DNA from: Nocardioides sp. zg-1308
GTDB lineage: Bacteria > Actinomycetota > Actinomycetes > Propionibacteriales > Nocardioidaceae
NCBI RefSeq assembly: GCF_013155375.1
Contig: NZ_JABJQY010000002.1
Location: 620,001 to 684,000, forward strand
DNA length: 64,000 nt
Direction: 5' to 3'
In this document: positions 1 through 60,768 of the stretch, piece by piece
Position numbering within the stretch: position 1 is the first letter of the stretch
Layout of the letters: every line of letters begins with the position of its first letter
Notes under the pieces: generated by a model
Database searches by the model: none
What the model saw: the letters and a program-made list of their open reading frames with translations, nothing else
What the model was told of the DNA's origin: nothing
Program-made: the position numbers and the translations under genes

Positions 1-841
1 GTCCGTTGACGTAGTCGGAGGTGCGCTGGTCGCGCGGGCTGGAGAACATCGCCTCGGTGTCGCCGTGCTCGACGATGACCCCCGGCGTGCCCTGCGAGGC
101 CAGGAAGAAGGCGCAGGTGTCCGAGACGCGGGCCGCCTGCTGCATGTTGTGCGTGACGATGACGACCGTGACCTGTCGCGCCAGGTCCTTCATCGTCTCC
201 TCGATGACCCGTGTGGACGTCGGGTCGAGGGCCGAGCACGGCTCGTCCATGAGCAGCACGCGGGGCTTGATGGCCAGCGAGCGCGCGATGCAGAGGCGTT
301 GCTGCTGGCCGCCGGAGAGGCCGCCGCCGGGGCTGTCGAGACGGTCCTTCACCTCGTTCCACAGACCCCCGCGGACCAGGCACTCCTCGACGAGCTCCTC
401 CTTGGCCGACCTCCCCAGCCTCGTCCCGGTCAGCCGCAGCCCGGCCACCACGTTCTCCCGGATGGACATCGCCGGGAACGGGTTCGGCTTCTGGAAGACC
501 ATGCCGATGGCACGGCGCGCGTCGGTCAGCTTGCGCTGGGGGTCGTAGATGTCATCGCCGTCGAGCAGCACCTCACCGGCCAGCGCCGCAGACGGGACCA
601 GCTCGTGCATCCGGTTGAGGATGCGGAGGAAGGTGGACTTCCCGCAGCCCGACGGGCCGATGAGGGCGGTGATGCCCGAGGCGGGCATGGTGAGCGACAC
701 CCGGTCGAGGACCTGGTGGCTGCCGAACCACGCGGTGATGTCGCGGGCCTCGAGGGTCGCAGGGCCGGCCGGTGGAGCTCCGCCGCTCGGCGCGGCAGGG
801 GCGGCGGGGACGGCGGAGGCGGGCAGCGTGGACTGGGGCAT
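1..841 (-). CDS. pstB: Phosphate ABC transporter ATP-binding protein PstB (partial, C-terminus off the edge)
   Basis: Cytoplasmic ATPase that powers phosphate import through the PstC-PstA channel. The 280 visible residues show Walker A GPSGCGKST at about 62-70, a Q-loop region (VFQKPNPFP), signature LSGGQQQR near 174 and Walker B VLLMDEP near 192-198. The visible part ends in SDYVNG, so by family comparison only two or three residues (RFG-like) are missing. It starts at ATG 841 and has an Ala/Pro-rich N-terminal extension of about 30 residues. It is separated from the other pst genes by three exported-protein genes and by a strong hairpin just upstream, so it may be expressed at a different level. 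Identification is secure. Confidence 0.96.
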   Translation of the reverse strand, partial: MPQSTLPASAVPAAPAAPSGGAPPAGPATLEARDITAWFGSHQVLDRVSLTMPASGITALIGPSGCGKSTFLRILNRMHELVPSAALAGEVLLDGDDIYDPQRKLTDARRAIGMVFQKPNPFPAMSIRENVVAGLRLTGTRLGRSAKEELVEECLVRGGLWNEVKDRLDSPGGGLSGGQQQRLCIARSLAIKPRVLLMDEPCSALDPTSTRVIEETMKDLARQVTVVIVTHNMQQAARVSDTCAFFLASQGTPGVIVEHGDTEAMFSSPRDQRTSDYVNG

Positions 842-2631: not shown

Positions 2632-3567
2632 TCACATCAGGTTGGGCAGCAGGCGCATGACCACGTCGGTCGTGAGCCAGGCGACGGCGAGCACGACCGG
2701 GGTCGCGACCACCCACACCAGGGCGGCTCCGAACCGCTGCCGGGCGGCGATGACCCCGAAGGCCAGCGCCAGGAGCAGGGCCAGGCACAGCGTCAGGAGC
2801 GGCATGACCGCGCCCGACTCGGTGCCCATCGCCTGCTCCGGATCAGGGACCACGCGGGGCAGGCCCGCGGGGGTGTCGAAGGCCTCGTCGGCCTCGGCGT
2901 CGACGTAGACGACCTCGCCCGGCGACAGCGACGGGAGCCGGGAGCCGCTGGCCTCGCCGCTGACGAGGACCAGCCGGGCGGCGTCGTCCGGGCGCGGCTG
3001 CGGCAGCGGGTCGCCCGCACGACGTACGCCGATGACGCGGAAGCGGGTGGCGCCCTGGGCGGTCGTGACGTTGACCTGGTCGCCGGGCACGAGCTCGCCG
3101 ATGCGCGCGAAGGGCGCCCCGTAGGTGCTCGCCCGGCCGAGGACGGCCGACGTGCCGCGCTGGCCGGGCAGCACCGTGTTGCGGAGGTGTCCCGGGCCGA
3201 CCAGCAGGTCGCCGGAGGCCGTCCCCTCGACGACCACCTGCTCCACGCCGATGTGCGGGATGGAGAGGGTGGCGACGGGCTGCCCCACCTCCGTGACGGG
3301 ACCGATGGGGGCCGTGCCGGCGGCGAGCTCCGCGCGGAACTGCGAGTACAGCGTGTCCTGGGCGCGGTCCTGCGACAGCCCACCGAGGTAGACCATCTGC
3401 GCGACCATCCAGCCGGCGACCAGGCAGCACATCACCGAGGTCGTCGTGATGACCGACCAGACGTCGTCGCCGGCCGGCGCCGTCGGGCGCACGGGCGTCG
3501 TACGAGGCGCGGGGGGACGGACCGCCGGCTCGGCGCCGGCTCGGGGCCTGCTGCTCGTCATCGTCAC
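2632..3567 (-). CDS. Sortase-fold membrane protein lacking catalytic His and Cys (pseudo-sortase)
   Basis: 311 residues: a Pro-rich cytoplasmic N-terminus, a membrane segment at about 37-60, an extracellular sortase-like domain at about 95-215, and two C-terminal membrane helices (about 253-275 and 281-300). The domain keeps the class D/E landmarks IPHIGVEQVVVEGT, GPGH and STYGAPF. Where active enzymes read AGHR, it has LGRAS (143-147), and where they read TLTTC it has RLVLVSG (198-204). All cysteines lie in membrane segments. It should therefore not transpeptidate, and a binding or scaffold role is more likely. The GTG start at 3567 overlaps the previous stop as GTGA, implying coupled translation; ATG 3561 is an alternative. 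Confidence 0.75.
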   Translation of the reverse strand: MTMTSSRPRAGAEPAVRPPAPRTTPVRPTAPAGDDVWSVITTTSVMCCLVAGWMVAQMVYLGGLSQDRAQDTLYSQFRAELAAGTAPIGPVTEVGQPVATLSIPHIGVEQVVVEGTASGDLLVGPGHLRNTVLPGQRGTSAVLGRASTYGAPFARIGELVPGDQVNVTTAQGATRFRVIGVRRAGDPLPQPRPDDAARLVLVSGEASGSRLPSLSPGEVVYVDAEADEAFDTPAGLPRVVPDPEQAMGTESGAVMPLLTLCLALLLALAFGVIAARQRFGAALVWVVATPVVLAVAWLTTDVVMRLLPNLM

Positions 3568-6188
3568 GACCGCCTCCTGCGGAGGTGTCGCAGCCGCAGC
3601 AGGTTGGCGCCGAGGGCGCTCACCATCGTGACGAGGAGGAGCAGCGGCAGGGTGCGTGCGGCCACCGGGGAGGAGACCGCGGTGGTCGGCGGCATGACGA
3701 GGAGCTCCTCCTCGTCGTCCTTGTCCGCGTCCGCGTCCCTGCGATCCCCCTTGGTGCCCCGCTCCTTGTCGCGGCCCCCTCCGTTGCCGGCCCCGCCGTC
3801 GTCGTCGGTCGTCTCCTCGAGCGTGGTGACGCTGCCCGGGCCCGGGGTGACGCCGCCGCCTCCGGCGCCGACACCGCCGCCGTCCTCGCCGTCCGTGCCG
3901 TCCCCGTCCGCCTCGTCCGTGCCGTCCTCGTCGGTCTCCGTCGCACCCGCCTGCTCGCCGATCGCGGTGGCGACCGCCTGGGCCTGCTTCCAGAGCGGAC
4001 CGGTGACACCGGTCTTGCGCAGCGGGACGTAGCCCGGCGGCAGCTCGCCGTTGCCGAAGCCCTCCTGCTGGCCCTCCGTCGTGGCGACCTGGATGAACTG
4101 CGCGACCTTGTCCGCGTCCTCCTGCGGCAGGTTGGCCGTCCGGGCCGCGGTGTAGACGATCACCGTCCCGGGGTAGGCGTCCGCCTTGACGAGGTCGGCC
4201 ATGTCCATGCGGAACGGCTCCTGCCCGCTCGTGCTGGGCTCGGCCAGCCGGAGGGCACGGCCGATCCCCGTGGCGGTGGGGGCGACGAAGTCGTCGCGGG
4301 TGGCGAGGAGCGCCTCGTCGAGGCCGAGCCGCTGGGCGTCACCCATGCTCACCACGCCGAGCATGAACCGGGAGCCGACGCCCTGGCGGTCGACCCGGCC
4401 GATCTTCCACGGGTCGGTGACCGTGGCGCGCTCGCACTTGGTCTGCACGTTGGGCCAGGCGTCGAGGATGGCCTCGGCGATCTTGCGCATCGACGGGACC
4501 GGCGCGGCGAGCTGGGTGAAGTACGGGGTGGGGTTCTGCTGGCGGCACTCGTCGTTGGTCACCGGCACGAAGTCGTCGAGCAGCGGCCACTCGGCCGTCG
4601 GCAGCTCGATCTTCTCGTAGCTCGGGTTGACCCGCATGCCCCACTCGTCCGGCTTGCCGTCGACCCACCTCATCGCCGCCTCGTCCTGGGCGATGTAGGA
4701 CGTCAGCGCCTCGATCACGTCGCTGGACTCCGACAGCGACAGCAGGGTCGCGGCCGCCTCCCGGGTGACGGTGTCGAGGCCCGGGTTGAGTGCCTGGAAC
4801 TCCGGGTCGAGGTTGATGCCCACCGGGTTCTGGGCCATGCCCGGGTGGCCGCGGCCGAGCTCGCTGCCCAGGTAGGACTGCGTCATCAGCTTGGCGATGA
4901 GCCGCGGGTTGAGCTTGAGACCGGTGTACTCGCCGGCGTTGCCGGGCAGGTCGATGACGTAGCCGATCGAGAAGCCGGTGACGGCGGTCGGCGCGTACGC
5001 GATCGGGTCGGACCCCTTGGCCTCGTGCTTGCCGGACACGAACGCCGCCGCGCCGCCGCCGTTCTCGGCCAGGGCGAAGCCTGCGGCGTCCGCCATCCGG
5101 TTGTGCTGGAACTTGAAGCGCTCCTTGTCCAGGCAGAAGCTGGGCGACCACTGCAGGGATGCCTGCGCCATCAGCTCGGAGCCGTAGAAGCCCGTGGGCG
5201 CCCGCGAGTCGAGGACCGTGCAGGCGTCCGGGGGCAGCCCGAAGGTGATCGGCACCGAGAAGCGGTTGCGCCAGTTGGACGCCGACCACCACAGCATCGG
5301 CGACGCCGTCAGGTCGACACCTTGGTTGGAGTAGTTGCTGGCGCCGGCCTCGAACTGTCCGCCGCGGTTGCAGGCGGCGTGGTCGTCGAGGCAGCTGATG
5401 CCCTGGATCGGGATCACCACGATCGAGCAGGCGACGGTGTCGGAGCAGCCGAGCGACTCGTTCTCCACGGCCGAGCGCACCTCGAACTTGGCGTGGCCGT
5501 TGCCCTCGAGGTCGGTGAACGCCGCCTGCTCGGCGGGTGGGAACGCGGCGCCGATCGCGGCTTCGGGGGGCATCGTCTCCGAGGTGCAGCTGGCGTGGAC
5601 GGTGCCGTTGGCGGCCCGGAACGGGGTCACGTGGGTGGAGAAGGTGGAGACGTCGTTGCACTCGGGCGGGATCGGCGCGAGGCCGAACTTCTGCCCGCGC
5701 TGCTCCTCGGTGGCGTGTTTGTCGTGGCGCCAGGCCGCCTCGGACTCGTCCGCGACCTGCGTGCGCTGGGTCCGCGAGGACGTCCAGCAGGTCTCCGGGG
5801 AGAGCTGCTGCTCCGGCGGCAGCGACGGGTCGTCGAGGCCGCGGCACTGCAGGATCACGACGGGGTACTCCTGGAGCTGCCCCTGCTCGCCGAACGGGCT
5901 GGACGAGCGGCCTCCGGTGGGGTGCGCCCCGGTCCAGGAGATGTTCACCCGCTCCCGACCACGCAGCTCGGTCGTGCGGTCGACGGTGACGGTCACGTCC
6001 CGGGAGTCGATCTCGAGCTCCTGGCCCTGCACCGTGATCGTGCGGTCGAGGTGCTTCGTCTGGGTGAACGCCGGCTCGGTCGCGTCGGGCGCGGCCTGCG
6101 CCGCCTCCCCGGTCCCGGCGACCGCCGCCGGGAGCACGACGGCGACCGCGAGCAGCGCCGTGGCCACCAGGCGCAGGCGGCGGCTCAT
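3564..6188 (-). CDS. Large secreted, membrane-anchored PBP-like protein of the pst operon
   Basis: 874 residues, with a signal peptide to about residue 33. A long Cys-containing extracellular region follows, then an acidic Gly/Asp/Thr linker (about 745-840), one C-terminal membrane helix and a basic tail (RHLRRRRS). I recognise no single-family match across the whole chain. The region around 640-735 (YPGTVIVYTAARTANLP, then VAQFIQVATTEGQ and GYVPL) resembles the last part of PstS proteins, and an internal segment resembles the PstS hinge, so a distant PBP fold is inferred. Even spacing of cysteines suggests disulfides. ATG 6188 overlaps the pstS stop as ATGA and the 3' end overlaps the next gene as GTGA. 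Function unknown. Confidence 0.7.
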   Translation of the reverse strand: MSRRLRLVATALLAVAVVLPAAVAGTGEAAQAAPDATEPAFTQTKHLDRTITVQGQELEIDSRDVTVTVDRTTELRGRERVNISWTGAHPTGGRSSSPFGEQGQLQEYPVVILQCRGLDDPSLPPEQQLSPETCWTSSRTQRTQVADESEAAWRHDKHATEEQRGQKFGLAPIPPECNDVSTFSTHVTPFRAANGTVHASCTSETMPPEAAIGAAFPPAEQAAFTDLEGNGHAKFEVRSAVENESLGCSDTVACSIVVIPIQGISCLDDHAACNRGGQFEAGASNYSNQGVDLTASPMLWWSASNWRNRFSVPITFGLPPDACTVLDSRAPTGFYGSELMAQASLQWSPSFCLDKERFKFQHNRMADAAGFALAENGGGAAAFVSGKHEAKGSDPIAYAPTAVTGFSIGYVIDLPGNAGEYTGLKLNPRLIAKLMTQSYLGSELGRGHPGMAQNPVGINLDPEFQALNPGLDTVTREAAATLLSLSESSDVIEALTSYIAQDEAAMRWVDGKPDEWGMRVNPSYEKIELPTAEWPLLDDFVPVTNDECRQQNPTPYFTQLAAPVPSMRKIAEAILDAWPNVQTKCERATVTDPWKIGRVDRQGVGSRFMLGVVSMGDAQRLGLDEALLATRDDFVAPTATGIGRALRLAEPSTSGQEPFRMDMADLVKADAYPGTVIVYTAARTANLPQEDADKVAQFIQVATTEGQQEGFGNGELPPGYVPLRKTGVTGPLWKQAQAVATAIGEQAGATETDEDGTDEADGDGTDGEDGGGVGAGGGGVTPGPGSVTTLEETTDDDGGAGNGGGRDKERGTKGDRRDADADKDDEEELLVMPPTTAVSSPVAARTLPLLLLVTMVSALGANLLRLRHLRRRRS

Positions 6189-7921
6189 CGGCCCGCTCCC
6201 CGACGTCGTACGCCGCGGGCGAGCAGCAGGCCGGGGACGAGGATGAGGGCCAACAGCTCGAGGGCGGCCAGGGCACCGAAGGCCCGGCCGTCGTCGGGCC
6301 GGCTGGCGGAGAGCTCGGTCGGCGTGGCGTAGATCGGGTCGGTCGTGGTGGCCGTGCCCGCCGCGGCTGCGGCACTGCCCTCGGCCGCCACGGCCTCGCC
6401 GGTGATCGGGTCGACCTCGGTGGCGGGAGGCTCCTCGCCACCTCCCCCACCGGCGCCGCCGCCCGTCCCCTGGTTCGCGTCGCCGCCGCCCGGACCGCCC
6501 GCGCCGCCCTGCTTGTCCGTCGTGGGCGTCCCGGCCTCCTCCCCACTCTCGGCGGGCTCCTCCGGCTGCTCCTCGTCGGTCGACGGCTCACCGGTGCCCG
6601 TGGAGGTGCCGCACGGGCCCTCGCCCTGCTCGTCACAGGCAGCCGGCTGCGGCGCGATCTGGGCGAGCTTGTTCTGCTCGAGGTTGCCGGCCACGAACGT
6701 CGGGTTGTTGCAGCGCGTGGCGTCGCGGTTCTCGATGTCCACCGCCGGGTCGGCGGTCTTGAGCTTCGCGAGCTGGGTGAAGCCGGCCTGCACGAGGTTG
6801 AGCGGCAGCGGCGAGTAGCCGTAGGGACCGGCCTTGGCCTGGCCCTCGCACAGCGAGTAGTACATGAAGTCGCCGAGCGTCTGGCGCTTCGCCGTCGACA
6901 TGCGCTGGTCCTGCGCACCGGTCGGGACGATCATGTAGCTGTAGGACGACAGCGGGTAGGCGCGGGGGTCCGTGGCGTTGTAGACACCGTCCAGGATCTG
7001 GGTGAGGTAGAGCGGCGAGCTCGTGTCCTCGTTGATCCGCGCCTTCGTCAGCGCGACGGCGACGTTGTACTGCGTCGGCTCGACGTAGTAGCCGCCCTCG
7101 TTGAGGACCTTGACGACCGGGTAGTCCTTGTTGAGCGGGTAGGCGTACTCGACGTAGCCGATCGTGCCGTTGCCGGCGAACCCGGAGATCGTGTTCATCA
7201 CCTGGTCCGAGCCCGACTGGGCCAGCATCCGGCCCTTGCGCGGGTAGTAGGACGTGTAGCCGCTCTTGCCGAAGTAGGGCCGCCAGATGTCGGGGTGCTC
7301 CGCGTCCATCCAGGTGGTCAGCTGGGCCGTGGTGCCGGAGCCGTCGGAACGCACCACCGGGGTGATGGCGACCTTGGGGAACGCCCGTCCGTTGTTGTCG
7401 TCGGTGATCGCCGGATCCGACCAGTCGGTGATCTCGCCGGTGAAGATCTTCGTCAGCGTCTCGCCGGAGAGCCGCAGGTTGCGGACCAGCTCGTCGCCGA
7501 TCTTGAGCTGGTAGGTGAAGGCCGTGCCGCCGGCCACGATGGGCAGGTAGGCGAACTCGCGGCCGTTGCTGTTGTCGGCGTTGCCGAACTCGTCGACGCC
7601 CGGGTAGGGGATCTCCGAGATGCCGAAGTCGGTCACGTTCTGCGCGAAGTTCTTGCGCCCCTGCGACGAGCCGCCGCCGTTGTAGGTGACCTTCATGCCG
7701 AGCGCGTCGACGTCGGAGATCCACTGCTGGACGATCACCTCGGACCAGGTGGAGCCGGAGCCCTCGATCTGGGCGTACGCCGCGCGCGCCGAGGTGCTGC
7801 CGAGGCGACCGTCGTCGGGCTCGCCGGGCACGTCGGCCTGGGCGGCCGCGGAGAGCCCCGGCGCGGAGAGCAGCGCGACGGCCGCGAGCGCGGCCACGAG
7901 GCGGAGGGAACGGGTGGTCAT
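6185..7921 (-). CDS. pstS: Phosphate-binding protein PstS with C-terminal membrane anchor
   Basis: 578 residues. A signal peptide ends at about AQA29. The PBP core (about 50-400) has phosphate-site motifs GSGST (54-58), GGGSSQG (82-88) and RSDGSGTT (191-198), plus a C-lobe GTIGYVEYAY segment. Instead of the usual N-terminal lipobox, the protein continues into a Cys pair, a Gly/Glu/Pro-rich linker of about 120 residues and one C-terminal membrane helix with tail RGVRRRGAGR, so it is tethered at the C-terminus. The canonical ASDAP segment reads ISEIP, a change near the phosphate site. ATG 7921 overlaps the pstA stop (ATGA). PstS assignment is firm; phosphate specificity is inferred. Confidence 0.9.
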   Translation of the reverse strand: MTTRSLRLVAALAAVALLSAPGLSAAAQADVPGEPDDGRLGSTSARAAYAQIEGSGSTWSEVIVQQWISDVDALGMKVTYNGGGSSQGRKNFAQNVTDFGISEIPYPGVDEFGNADNSNGREFAYLPIVAGGTAFTYQLKIGDELVRNLRLSGETLTKIFTGEITDWSDPAITDDNNGRAFPKVAITPVVRSDGSGTTAQLTTWMDAEHPDIWRPYFGKSGYTSYYPRKGRMLAQSGSDQVMNTISGFAGNGTIGYVEYAYPLNKDYPVVKVLNEGGYYVEPTQYNVAVALTKARINEDTSSPLYLTQILDGVYNATDPRAYPLSSYSYMIVPTGAQDQRMSTAKRQTLGDFMYYSLCEGQAKAGPYGYSPLPLNLVQAGFTQLAKLKTADPAVDIENRDATRCNNPTFVAGNLEQNKLAQIAPQPAACDEQGEGPCGTSTGTGEPSTDEEQPEEPAESGEEAGTPTTDKQGGAGGPGGGDANQGTGGGAGGGGGEEPPATEVDPITGEAVAAEGSAAAAAGTATTTDPIYATPTELSASRPDDGRAFGALAALELLALILVPGLLLARGVRRRGAGR

Positions 7922-9111
7922 GAGGACTCCTCGGGGGCGACGCGCTGCGCGCGGGTCGTACGACGGGGGCGGGGACGGGCGCTCGCGCGCGCGGGGCGGG
8001 CGAGGAGCCGGGCGATGACGAACAGGACCAGCACCAGCACCAGCAGCGCGGTCGCGGCGGCGAAGGCCCGCTCGATGTCCATCGGCTCGGGGCTGCGGGC
8101 TCCCTTGAAGATGAAGAGCGGGAGCGAGTTCATGACGCCGTCGGTCGGGTCGGTGACGAGGAACGACGCGACGCCCGACGTCAGGAGGACCGGCGACGTC
8201 TCGCCGACACCCCGGGCGACCCCGAGGATCAGCGCGGTCGCGAGTCCTGGCCGAGCCGTGGGGAGCACGACGTGCCACACCGTGCGCCACCGACTGGCGC
8301 CCAGCGCCAGGCTCGCCTCGCGCAGGCCTCCGGGCACGACCCGCAGCACGACGTCGGCGGCGCGGGCGATGATCGGCAGCATCATCACCGACAGGGCCAT
8401 CGCCGCGGCGAAGCCGGACCGCGGGAAGCCCAGCGCGACGATGAGCACCGTGTAGACGAAGAGCCCGGCCACGATCGAGGGCAGCGCGGTCATCGCCTCG
8501 ACGATCGTGCGCACGACTGCCGCGAAGCGGCCGCCGACCTCGGTCATGAAGACCGCGGTGCCGATGCCCAGCGGCAGGGTCACTGCGACGGCGATGCCGA
8601 GCTGGATCGCGGAGCCGACGATGGCGTGCCCGATGCCGCCCTTGTCGAACGGGTCCCGAGGGCCGACACCGGCCATGTCGTCGGTGAAGAAGTTGAGGTG
8701 CAGCAGGGGCTCCCAGCCGCGGTAGACCACGAACACCACGGCACTGACCAGCGCAGCGCCGACGAGCAGCGCGCCCGAGGTCACGACACCGCTCACGACC
8801 CGGTCCACGACGTCGACGCGCCGGCCCGTCATCGAGGTGGTCACCGCGCTGACGACCAGACCGAGGGCGAACCAGGTGACCAGCAGCCACGCGGCGCCGC
8901 CGAGCGGCAGGAGTCGCTGGGTGATCAACCAGGCCAGGGCCAGCGCGCTGACCCAGGCGCCGACGACGGTGAACCGCTCCTCGGCCGTCGGCCTGCCCAG
9001 GCCGGGGCGGGCGACCGGAGGCGGCGCGTCCAGGTCGCGCTGCGGGAGGTGGGTGGTCGCCGTCGGCGCACCGCTCAGCGTCGTCGTCGCAGTCGTGGAC
9101 GGGGCGCTCAT
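7918..9111 (-). CDS. pstA: Phosphate ABC transporter permease PstA
   Basis: 397 residues of inner-membrane channel subunit. The permease EAA-type loop reads REASLALGASRWRTVWHVVLP in the C-terminal half, followed by VGETSPVLLTSG, which is typical of PstA. The protein is about 100 residues longer than common PstA because of a polar N-terminus (about 45 residues) and two extra hydrophobic segments before the transporter core. It also has a basic C-terminal tail. The start at ATG 9111 overlaps the pstC stop as ATGA and the 3' end overlaps pstS as ATGA, so pstC, pstA and pstS are translationally coupled. Confidence 0.95.
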   Translation of the reverse strand: MSAPSTTATTTLSGAPTATTHLPQRDLDAPPPVARPGLGRPTAEERFTVVGAWVSALALAWLITQRLLPLGGAAWLLVTWFALGLVVSAVTTSMTGRRVDVVDRVVSGVVTSGALLVGAALVSAVVFVVYRGWEPLLHLNFFTDDMAGVGPRDPFDKGGIGHAIVGSAIQLGIAVAVTLPLGIGTAVFMTEVGGRFAAVVRTIVEAMTALPSIVAGLFVYTVLIVALGFPRSGFAAAMALSVMMLPIIARAADVVLRVVPGGLREASLALGASRWRTVWHVVLPTARPGLATALILGVARGVGETSPVLLTSGVASFLVTDPTDGVMNSLPLFIFKGARSPEPMDIERAFAAATALLVLVLVLFVIARLLARPARASARPRPRRTTRAQRVAPEESS

Positions 9112-10124
9112 GCGTCGGTCCCCGCCCCGGAGCGGCTGCGGGCGACGATCATCGCGGCGAGCGTGTTGACGACGAGCGTGATGAGGAACAGCACGAAGCC
9201 GGCGGTCAGGAGCGCGGAGAGCTGGGCAGCGCTCGCGTCGCCGAAGCGGCCGGCGATCAGCGCGCTGACCGAGCTGGTGCCCACCTCGAGGACACGCGGC
9301 TTGATGACGAAGTCCGGCGAGATGATGAGGAGCACGGCGATGGTCTCGCCGAGGGCCCGGCCGAGGCCGAGCATCGTCCCGCCGATGATGCCGCCGCGAC
9401 CGAAGGGCAGCACGACGGCGCGGACCATGCCCCAGCGGGTCGCGCCGAGCGCGAGGGCCGCCTCCTTCTCGCCGGGCGGCGTCTGCGAGAACACCTGGCG
9501 CATCACCGCGCAGGACATCGGCAGCACCATCATCGCCACGGCGATGCCGGCGCAGAACGCGCTGCCGATGTAGCGCGACTGGTCCCAGACGGCCGCGTCG
9601 GGGTCCGCTCCCACCGCGAAGACCGGGATCCAGCCGAGGTGCTGGTGCAGCCAGAGGCTGAACGCCGCCGCGTGGGGCATGACGAGGAAGTAGCCCCACA
9701 TCCCGTAGATGATCGAGGGGACGGCGGCCATCAGGTCGACGAGCGAGACGAGGGTCGGCTTGACGCCGGCGGGGGCGTACTCGCTGATGTAGAGGGCCGT
9801 CAGCAGTGCCAGCGGGAAGGCGAGGACCATCGCCACGCCGGCGATCGACACCGTGCCGACCAGGACGGCGGCGATGCCGAGCACGTCGGACTCGGGCTGC
9901 CAGGCGCTCTCGGTGAAGAAGCTCCAGCCGTAGCGCTGCAGCGTCGGCACGGACTGCCAGGCGAGGAAGACGCCGATCCCGCCCGTGACGACGAGCACCG
10001 TCGCACCGACGGTGCGGGCGCCGACCTCGAAGACGCGATCGGCACCGGTGGCCTTGCGAGCCAGCCGGCGCGGGACCGGCGGCCCGGTGGGCACGATGCG
10101 GTCCTGGGCAGGGAGAGTTGTCAC
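9108..10124 (-). CDS. pstC: Phosphate ABC transporter permease PstC
   Basis: 338 residues, the usual PstC length. It has about six membrane segments, the EAA loop EKEAALALGATRWGMV, and the downstream GLGRALGETIAVLLI segment that is diagnostic for PstC. It forms the inner-membrane phosphate channel with PstA. I place the start at GTG 10124 (VTTLPAQDR...), preceded by GAAAG at a suitable distance. Reading further upstream gives arginine/proline-rich sequence unlike the family. It is the first gene of the operon; candidate PHO boxes lie at 10228-10257. Confidence 0.95.
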   Translation of the reverse strand: MTTLPAQDRIVPTGPPVPRRLARKATGADRVFEVGARTVGATVLVVTGGIGVFLAWQSVPTLQRYGWSFFTESAWQPESDVLGIAAVLVGTVSIAGVAMVLAFPLALLTALYISEYAPAGVKPTLVSLVDLMAAVPSIIYGMWGYFLVMPHAAAFSLWLHQHLGWIPVFAVGADPDAAVWDQSRYIGSAFCAGIAVAMMVLPMSCAVMRQVFSQTPPGEKEAALALGATRWGMVRAVVLPFGRGGIIGGTMLGLGRALGETIAVLLIISPDFVIKPRVLEVGTSSVSALIAGRFGDASAAQLSALLTAGFVLFLITLVVNTLAAMIVARSRSGAGTDA

Positions 10125-10404: not shown

Positions 10405-10578
10405 GGTCGGGGAGGATGACCCGGTGCTCCCCCGCTTCGAGGTCGTCCGCCGGTTGCGTCCGGTGGACCTCGTGGCTCCGGGCGCCGTGCAGGTCGGGGA
10501 GGATGACCCGGTGCTCCCCCGCTTCGAGGTCGTCCGCCGGTTGCGTCCGGTGGACCTCGTGGCTCCGGGCGCCGTGCA
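10405..10578 (+). repeat. Perfect tandem duplication of 87 bp covering a ribosome site and start codon
   Basis: Copies 10405-10491 and 10492-10578 are identical over all 87 bases. Each contains GGGGAGG followed by GTG at 8-nt spacing (GTG at 10424 and 10511), both in the frame of the downstream gene. Because 87 is a multiple of three, the duplication adds 29 codons without shifting frame and supplies two equivalent initiation sites. Confidence 0.95.
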
Positions 10579-11848
10579 GGTCGAGGTGGCGACTGCGGGC
10601 ACGGTGCCGATGCCGGTCGTGGGGCCGGACGTCGGCGCCACGACGTCCTCACCGGCCGGGCCTGCGCTCCACCTGGCCGGGCACCGCTTCGCGGCGTCCG
10701 TGCGGGACGGCTCGGTGGTCCTCGACGTCGCGGACGGACGGACGTCGCGCGAGCTGCGGAGCCGACGCTTCCACCGCACGGTCGGCCCGTCCGCGACGGG
10801 GCTGACCCTCACCGGGACGCACGTGACGGCGTGGGTCCGCGAGGGATCGAGCTGGGTGGCCCGCGCGCGCCACGACCTGCGCGAGGTCCTCGACACCCGC
10901 GACGAGGCGGCGCTGGCCGACCTCCGGGTCGAGCTGCCCAAGGGCGGCGGGGTCGCCGGCCGCTTCGGCCAGCTCGGGCTGCGCGACGTCCGCTTCGTCA
11001 CGACGGAGGACGGCCGCCCGCTGCGGGACGGCAGCGCGCTGTGGCTCACGGCCACGTCCGCCGGGCCCGGGTTCTTCGACACGGCGCACACCAGCGTGTG
11101 GCGGCTCGAGGGCCTCGAGGCGACCCACACCGCTGACCTCTTCTTCCGCAGGCCCGACCGGCCCGGGGTGTTCGGCGACCACGCGACCCACCTCGTCCGC
11201 AGCGGCGGGAGTTGGCTGGTGGCGACCAGCACGTGGGGCGACTTCGAGAAGCCGGCCTCGCGCGCGGGGCGTCGTACGCCGGCGGGGTTGCGGGTGACGC
11301 TCGCGGAGTCGGACGCCGACCTGCTGCACGGCGCGCACGTGCTTGACACGCGCGAGCTGCCCCTCCCCACCGACGGGCTGCGCTCCATCGCGACGTGGGA
11401 CCCCCACCTGGTGCGGCGCGACGGCGAGTGGCTGGTGGGGTTCGTCAGCGCGCGGCGGTTCTTCGACTTCCACCCGGCCCTCGCGTCGGGGCCGTCCCTC
11501 GACGACCTCCGGCTGCGGGGTGCGGCCACGGACCGCCGCTCGACCGAGGGCACGACCCTCGTCGAGGTCGACGGCCGGACGGTGGTCCTCGCGAGCGACG
11601 GGCGTGACTCGCGCCGGGCCCAGCGGGGACGCTTCCCCGTCCTCGACCTGGCGATGGCCGACGTCGACCTTCTCGACGCGCCGTACCCCACGAACCTGCC
11701 CTGGCCGTCCATCGCGCAGGTGGACGGCGGGTGGCTGATGGCGACCTTCGACGGCACGCCGAGGGGCGGCCGGATCCTCGGCTACGGCACCCACGGCGAC
11801 CTGGTGCTGATGCGTGCCAAGGGATCGGCCGGGTCTACGCTGAGGTGA
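10424..11848 (+). CDS. Hypothetical protein, probably propeller-like
   Basis: 474 residues from GTG 10424, or 445 from GTG 10511; each start has its own GGGGAGG. I do not recognise the family. No signal peptide or membrane segment is visible. The C-terminal two thirds has short recurring motifs, such as [31 protein letters not shown] and [13 protein letters not shown], each an aromatic/Gly turn followed by a hydrophobic strand. That pattern fits blades of a beta-propeller such as arabinanase or sialidase folds, but no catalytic set is evident. The N-terminal 29 residues are repeated if the first start is used. It is divergent from pst and 79 bp upstream of the dehydrogenase gene. Confidence 0.7.
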
Positions 11849-60078: not shown

Positions 60079-60768
60079 TCACCGTCCGGTCGGCTCCCGC
60101 GACGCCAGGTGGCCGAACGCCACCAGCCGGTCGTCGGTGTGGAACAGCTCCGAGCAGGTGGTGACGGTGATGAGCCGCTGGCCCGGACGCTGCTCGGGCT
60201 GCACACCGCCCTCGGGGTTCGCAGGGAGGTCGTCGAGCACCCAGCCCGCGGTGAACGGCACCGTCAGGTCGTCGCCGCCCGTGTCGAGGACGTAGCGGTA
60301 GGTCCACCGCGGGGTCTCGACCAGCACCTCGTCGCCGGGCTCGAGCTCGGGCATGTCGCGCAGCGGCTCGCCGTGCGTGACCCGATGGGCGGCGATCGCG
60401 AAGTTGCCGAGGCCCCCGGCGGCCGCCGCGTCCGTGAAGCGGCCGAAGCCCGCCGCGAGCACCTCGTCGTCCGTCCCCTCGAGCAGCGGCACGGCGTAGT
60501 CCTCGCCGAAGCGCGGGATCCGCACGATCGCCGTCATCGCGCCGTGCTCGGTGAAGGTGACCTCCTGCGCCGGTGCGGTCCCGTCGACCTCGGCGGCCCG
60601 GTCCCACTCACGCCGGGCACCCTCGACCAGGTCGCGGTGGGTGCGCTGCGCGACGACGTTGGTCCCCCACACCTGCCACGCCACCCAGCCCCCGAGCACC
60701 AGCCCGGCCACGACCAGCACCGCACCCAGCACCCCCGTCCAGCGGGCTCGGGCGGAGGCTGCGGACAT
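60079..60768 (-). CDS. srtE: Class E sortase (catalytically intact)
   Basis: 229 residues. One N-terminal membrane helix (about 12-35) and an extracellular sortase barrel with complete catalytic set: His128 in AAHRVTHG, Cys205 in TVTTCSE, Arg214 in TDDRLVAFG. Anchors wall proteins to peptidoglycan, probably at LAXTG-type signals. Start ATG 60768. No substrate gene is adjacent. It contrasts with the dead sortase-fold protein at 2632-3567. Confidence 0.93.
   Translation of the reverse strand: MSAASARARWTGVLGAVLVVAGLVLGGWVAWQVWGTNVVAQRTHRDLVEGARREWDRAAEVDGTAPAQEVTFTEHGAMTAIVRIPRFGEDYAVPLLEGTDDEVLAAGFGRFTDAAAAGGLGNFAIAAHRVTHGEPLRDMPELEPGDEVLVETPRWTYRYVLDTGGDDLTVPFTAGWVLDDLPANPEGGVQPEQRPGQRLITVTTCSELFHTDDRLVAFGHLASREPTGR

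Follow-up and report, generated by a model that had tools for sequence, protein, structure and literature searches.

Among described sortases, the class E enzymes come closest to the protein considered here, and in one of them, SrtE1 of Streptomyces coelicolor, Tyr229 in the beta3/beta4 loop helps to bind LAXTG (PMC5148588). The second known system that bears on it is the PstSCAB phosphate ABC transporter, which, like the operon described below, combines a PstS carrying the SDGSGT motif with PstC, PstA and PstB. In the window (the whole stretch of 64,000 nucleotides from Nocardioides sp. zg-1308 that was analyzed) the two come together, as a gene for a sortase-like protein that has lost its catalytic triad lies within a pst operon. 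Since the triad is gone and the gene has nevertheless long been kept beside a phosphate importer, this pseudo-sortase is most likely a docking part and not an enzyme. On balance, we lean towards the view that Actinomycetota possess a variant phosphate ABC transporter to which the sortase-derived pseudoenzyme belongs as a standing accessory subunit, and that it would dock TM-anchored binding proteins at PstCA.

The pseudo-sortase gene and its operon

A run of seven genes on the same strand encodes PstC, PstA, PstS, a large binding-protein-like protein, the pseudo-sortase, a PBP/Ig protein and PstB (Table 1), and with pstC, pstA, pstS and pstB all together the locus qualifies as a Pst operon. 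The 4-nt overlaps between neighboring genes, ATGA at pstA/pstS and at pstS/large protein and GTGA at large protein/pseudo-sortase, suggest one transcript with coupled translation. The PstS of the window has a long linker and fails the test for a standard lipoprotein, since it lacks a lipobox and carries a C-terminal TM helix followed by an RRR tail. The 874-aa protein at 3564-6188 belongs to a little-described family with relatives in 71 of the 76 pseudo-sortase contexts analyzed below; the window copy matches PstS weakly (TIGR00975, E 0.0015) and has no Pfam match. A search for PHO-box-like repeats yielded nothing above chance, and there was no plasmid match. Upstream of pstC, in an ORF on the opposite strand, lies an 87-bp tandem repeat (10405-10583; 2.1 copies, 100% identity) that represents either a recent duplication or an assembly effect.

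Table 1. Features of the pst operon, parts of the pseudo-sortase and the intact comparator (nucleotide positions in the window, or residues where indicated)
Feature	Position	Strand	Remarks
PstC permease	9108..10124	(-)	start inferred from translation
PstA permease	7918..9111	(-)	start inferred; ATGA overlap with pstS
PstS, 578 aa	6185..7921	(-)	PBP_like_2 155 bits; SDGSGT motif; ATGA overlap with both neighbors
Large substrate-binding-like protein, 874 aa	3564..6188	(-)	signal peptide; C-terminal TM and RRR tail
Pseudo-sortase gene	2632..3567	(-)	311 aa; GTG start
Pseudo-sortase, N-terminus			Pro/Arg-rich, cytoplasmic
Pseudo-sortase, TM1	residues 38-56
Pseudo-sortase, sortase domain	residues ~95-225		extracytoplasmic
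Pseudo-sortase, catalytic sites	R145, G204, V219		at the His, Cys and Arg sites, respectively
Pseudo-sortase, TM2 and TM3	residues 257-275 and 280-298		hairpin
Pseudo-sortase, C-terminal end			LLPNLM
Secreted PBP_like_2 protein, 533 aa	968..2569	(-)	C-terminal Big_3_5 Ig-like domain; without C-terminal TM
PstB ATPase	1..841	(-)	extends past the window end
Comparator, catalytically intact class E sortase	60079..60768	(-)	H128, C205, R214; outside the pst system

The pseudo-sortase is encoded by an intact ORF with a strong Shine-Dalgarno sequence (GCAGGAGG) and a GC3 of 0.96. Its 311-aa product scores above the cut-off of the Pfam sortase model (PF04203; 3.2e-14, 53 bits, cut-off 26.6) and matches sortases in the PDB, best 5uus at 2.6e-13, where AGHR is aligned with LGRA of our protein. 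The original prediction noted a good fit to class D/E sortases. Class E is the nearest class in NCBIfam; its model (NF033747) matched at 3.9e-20 over a partial alignment (model positions 10-154 of 211), but the score of 72.6 bits does not reach the cut-off of 160, and the NCBIfam class D model was weaker still. Judged by these profile matches the protein is a member of the sortase superfamily by fold, and structure models predicted from six sequences were too poor for use (pLDDT 47.5 for the full length and 34.9 for the domain). As all 50 family members tested match PF04203 at E<=0.001 and the pseudo-sortases pass the Pfam cut-off, they are liable to be annotated as 'sortase' despite having no residue of the sortase chemistry. 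The losses first read from the sequence, of His (AGHR to LGRAS, R145) and of Cys (in 'LVLVSG', G204), were both confirmed; however, the description of two lost residues was incomplete, since the third catalytic residue, Arg, is gone as well (V219), and the three TM segments were absent from it. The sortase proposed as an intact comparator does retain its triad (Table 1), and two more sortase loci in the same genome also retain His and Cys.

Shared losses and pst linkage across Actinomycetota

Searches at four taxonomic levels (family, 150 genomes; order, 98; class, 297; phylum, 296) recovered full-length relatives. In the class-level search, 41 of the 297 genomes had one, and these fell into 24 of the 114 genera covered. 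In an alignment of 99 distinct members from many families across Actinomycetota, His, Cys and Arg were absent from their sites in every member, which answers the proposal to examine relatives for the same losses. The His site is occupied by Arg in 96 members and Lys in three, the Cys site by Ala (66), Ser (18), Gly (11), Thr (3) or Val (1) and never by Cys, and the Arg site never by Arg, with one Lys. All three catalytic residues were found in 15 of 16 aligned comparators. The exception, a sortase-like protein at L125:904-2388, has replaced His by Tyr and Cys by Thr independently of the main clade and kept Arg. At the site of the LAXTG-contacting Tyr of SrtE1 the window protein has Leu, and Arg (53), Leu (21) and Gln (9) are found in the family; because this Tyr is replaced, the protein has either come to bind another ligand or ceased to use the groove. 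With the triad and the substrate Tyr gone and the score below the NCBIfam cut-off, plain class E membership was dropped as an assignment.

A tree was built without the three catalytic columns, with 64 inactive rows sampled, and one change suffices to account for all 64, of which 62 are joined at 100/99 while the most divergent two, L114 and L162, join weakly (85/19). This topology supports the pseudo-sortases as one clade with a single main origin. Comparison of the window gene with six close relatives (residues 38-311) gave a dN/dS of about 0.14-0.20, indicating purifying selection; for pairs further apart, saturation and GC bias influence the values.

For the count of genomic contexts we used the 76 distinct members whose readable surroundings exceed 9 kb, and pst genes adjoin the pseudo-sortase in 75 of these. 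The linkage to pst, which the original prediction proposed to check in the homologues, was found throughout except at L130, which is close to a contig end and adjoins a large binding-protein gene. The 76 contexts contained pstB in 72 cases, the Ig/PBP protein in 72 and the large binding protein in 71, and the two nearest cluster genes lay on the same rather than the opposite strand at a ratio of 147:2. We found 20 distinct same-strand gene orders, some of which are merely contig truncations whereas several complete ones truly differ, and the persistence of the linkage despite rearrangement argues for a shared function. Together, the same losses in all 99 members, the single clade, purifying selection and the pst linkage make the repurposing put forward in the original prediction well supported, while the more precise role, 'binding or scaffold', is one that we infer. 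Some clusters also include a WxLIP_PGBD (WxL-interacting protein) membrane protein (L070:6116-7243, L077:4822-6660), which hints that these lineages have a surface complex associated with the wall. At L150:5695-7521 a divergent pseudo-sortase is adjoined by a PBP_like_2 protein that begins with a domain of the neocarzinostatin family.

The best-matching intact proteins are sortases from other actinobacterial classes, several of them with the same three-TM build and with C-terminal tails (LLPPNL, LLPANY, LMPPNY) similar to LLPNL in the pseudo-sortase. In a profile-profile comparison, 14 intact sortases matched the pseudo-sortases with an E of 3e-43 along 269 columns, and the aligned region takes in both TM1 and the C-terminal hairpin. 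In the three intact relatives for which a wide context was read (L151, L152 and L153) none lies in a pst operon, and a 95-bit 'pstB' mark at L151 was taken as spurious since it overlaps the sortase gene on the opposite strand. The tree and the residue counts support the view that an active three-TM sortase lost its triad once, early, in or en route into a pst operon.

Anchored binding proteins and the possible role of the pseudo-sortase

All 67 PstS proteins from these operons have a TM helix at the C-terminus, followed by a basic tail, and of the large binding proteins 65 of 70 end in a TM helix, 63 of them with a basic tail too. In a genus sample of 40 genomes, a TM-ended PstS was found in 21, the same 21 contained a full-length pseudo-sortase, and the other 19 lacked both (uncorrected Fisher 8e-12, with the genomes counted regardless of relatedness); for genes within one operon, co-inheritance partly explains such a co-occurrence. 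A lipobox-like match was found in only one TM-ended PstS of this sample, whereas five standard PstS paralogues from genomes of the genus lacked the C-terminal TM helix and four of the five had a lipobox. No conserved pentapeptide was found in the juxtamembrane stretch across the family tails, and the LAXTG letters occurred in 2 of 67 PstS tails and in two further cluster proteins. Two proteins encoded near pseudo-sortase genes (L102:1-780, L137:11661-13418) end in an LAQTG signal followed by a TM helix and basic residues, and are likely to be true class E sortase substrates.

By sequence, PstS and the larger binding protein are held in the membrane by their C-terminal TM helix with its basic tail. 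The three TM helices of the pseudo-sortase may keep its sortase domain beside PstCA. We infer that the pseudo-sortase docks these proteins: its sortase domain would bind their juxtamembrane stretch or linker and not cleave it, would thereby concentrate and orient them at the permease, and perhaps would shield them from the active sortases of the cell. Since the SrtE1 Tyr is gone and the clients share no pentapeptide, any feature that is recognized must be a different one; the linker or the TM helix as such would be examples.

The alternative that survives best, although we regard it as unlikely, is that the invariant Arg together with R182 and R198 has turned the old active site into a pocket that accommodates phosphate, polyphosphate or a wall phosphodiester, with which the pseudo-sortase would sense phosphate or hand it to PstS. 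That the former His site without exception retains a positive charge keeps this reading in play, R182 and R198 are present in 95 and 92 of 99 members, respectively, and the operon serves phosphate, with the SDGSGT motif retained in PstS; however, R198 also occurs in some active relatives, and the Arg at the old His site could be merely structural. We assign a slightly smaller chance to a chaperone or stator that has no part in transport and helps the long binding proteins and the secreted Ig protein to fold and to be inserted into the membrane. Such a function would agree with the nearly constant presence of genes for the large binding protein or the Ig protein (71 and 72 of 76) and with the 4-nt overlap of the pseudo-sortase and binding-protein genes. 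Nothing specific speaks against it, though the binding proteins of other Pst systems are not known to require such a helper. An enzyme using a different catalytic set in the old groove appears very improbable and was rejected: while the domain is otherwise highly conserved and H127 is nearly invariant, this residue belongs to the GPGH motif, which active sortases have as well, no new invariant Cys, Ser or Lys nucleophile is found near the groove, and 66 of 99 members have Ala in place of the Cys. Finally, the possibility that a working sortase has recently decayed in the manner of a pseudogene, for which only the loss of the catalytic residues speaks, and which the original prediction had tied to relatives keeping His and Cys, is refuted with hardly any doubt left, given 99 members alike across many families of the phylum, a single clade and purifying selection between close relatives.

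Returning to docking as the preferred explanation, a more general and clearly more tentative proposal is that the clade forms a membrane receptor for uncut, sorting-signal-like C-termini of substrate-binding proteins, which would add a further tether to those provided by lipidation and permease fusion. Should the binding proteins indeed be docked in this manner, this would be a new way of assembling an ABC importer whose PstS is not lipidated. Because the pseudo-sortase and a TM-anchored PstS go together one to one, docking is directly testable in non-pathogenic Nocardioides. In the open-access papers searched we found no description of an inactive or pst-linked sortase family, an absence that in itself does not prove novelty.

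Comparison with known systems

In contrast to standard PstSCAB, the PstS of the window system is held by a C-terminal TM helix instead of a lipobox, and besides the pseudo-sortase the system has two additional binding proteins. PstS and the large binding protein share with sortase substrates the C-terminal TM helix and basic tail, but unlike LPXTG/LAXTG substrates they have no recognizable cutting motif. With class E sortases, such as SrtE1 (PMC5148588) and the intact sortase of the window, the pseudo-sortase has in common the sortase domain, an N-terminal TM helix and motifs of the IP.IG...VEGT and GPGH types, whereas it differs from them in that it has lost both the triad and the Tyr that contacts the substrate, carries two extra C-terminal TM helices and is encoded with pst. 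The active three-TM sortases (L115/L151, L118, L120, L124, L152 and L153), which the tree places with its closest intact relatives, resemble it further in their C-terminal TM hairpin, a (T)TYG.PF-type motif and, in most cases, an LLPxN-like C-terminal tail, but they keep His, Cys and Arg, and L151-L153 lie outside pst operons. As a working analogy in a different fold and in other organisms, and not as homology, the pseudo-sortase may be likened to iRhom and other pseudoproteases, which are reported to be inactive relatives of membrane enzymes that still recognize client proteins (PMC6451368, PMC7618786).
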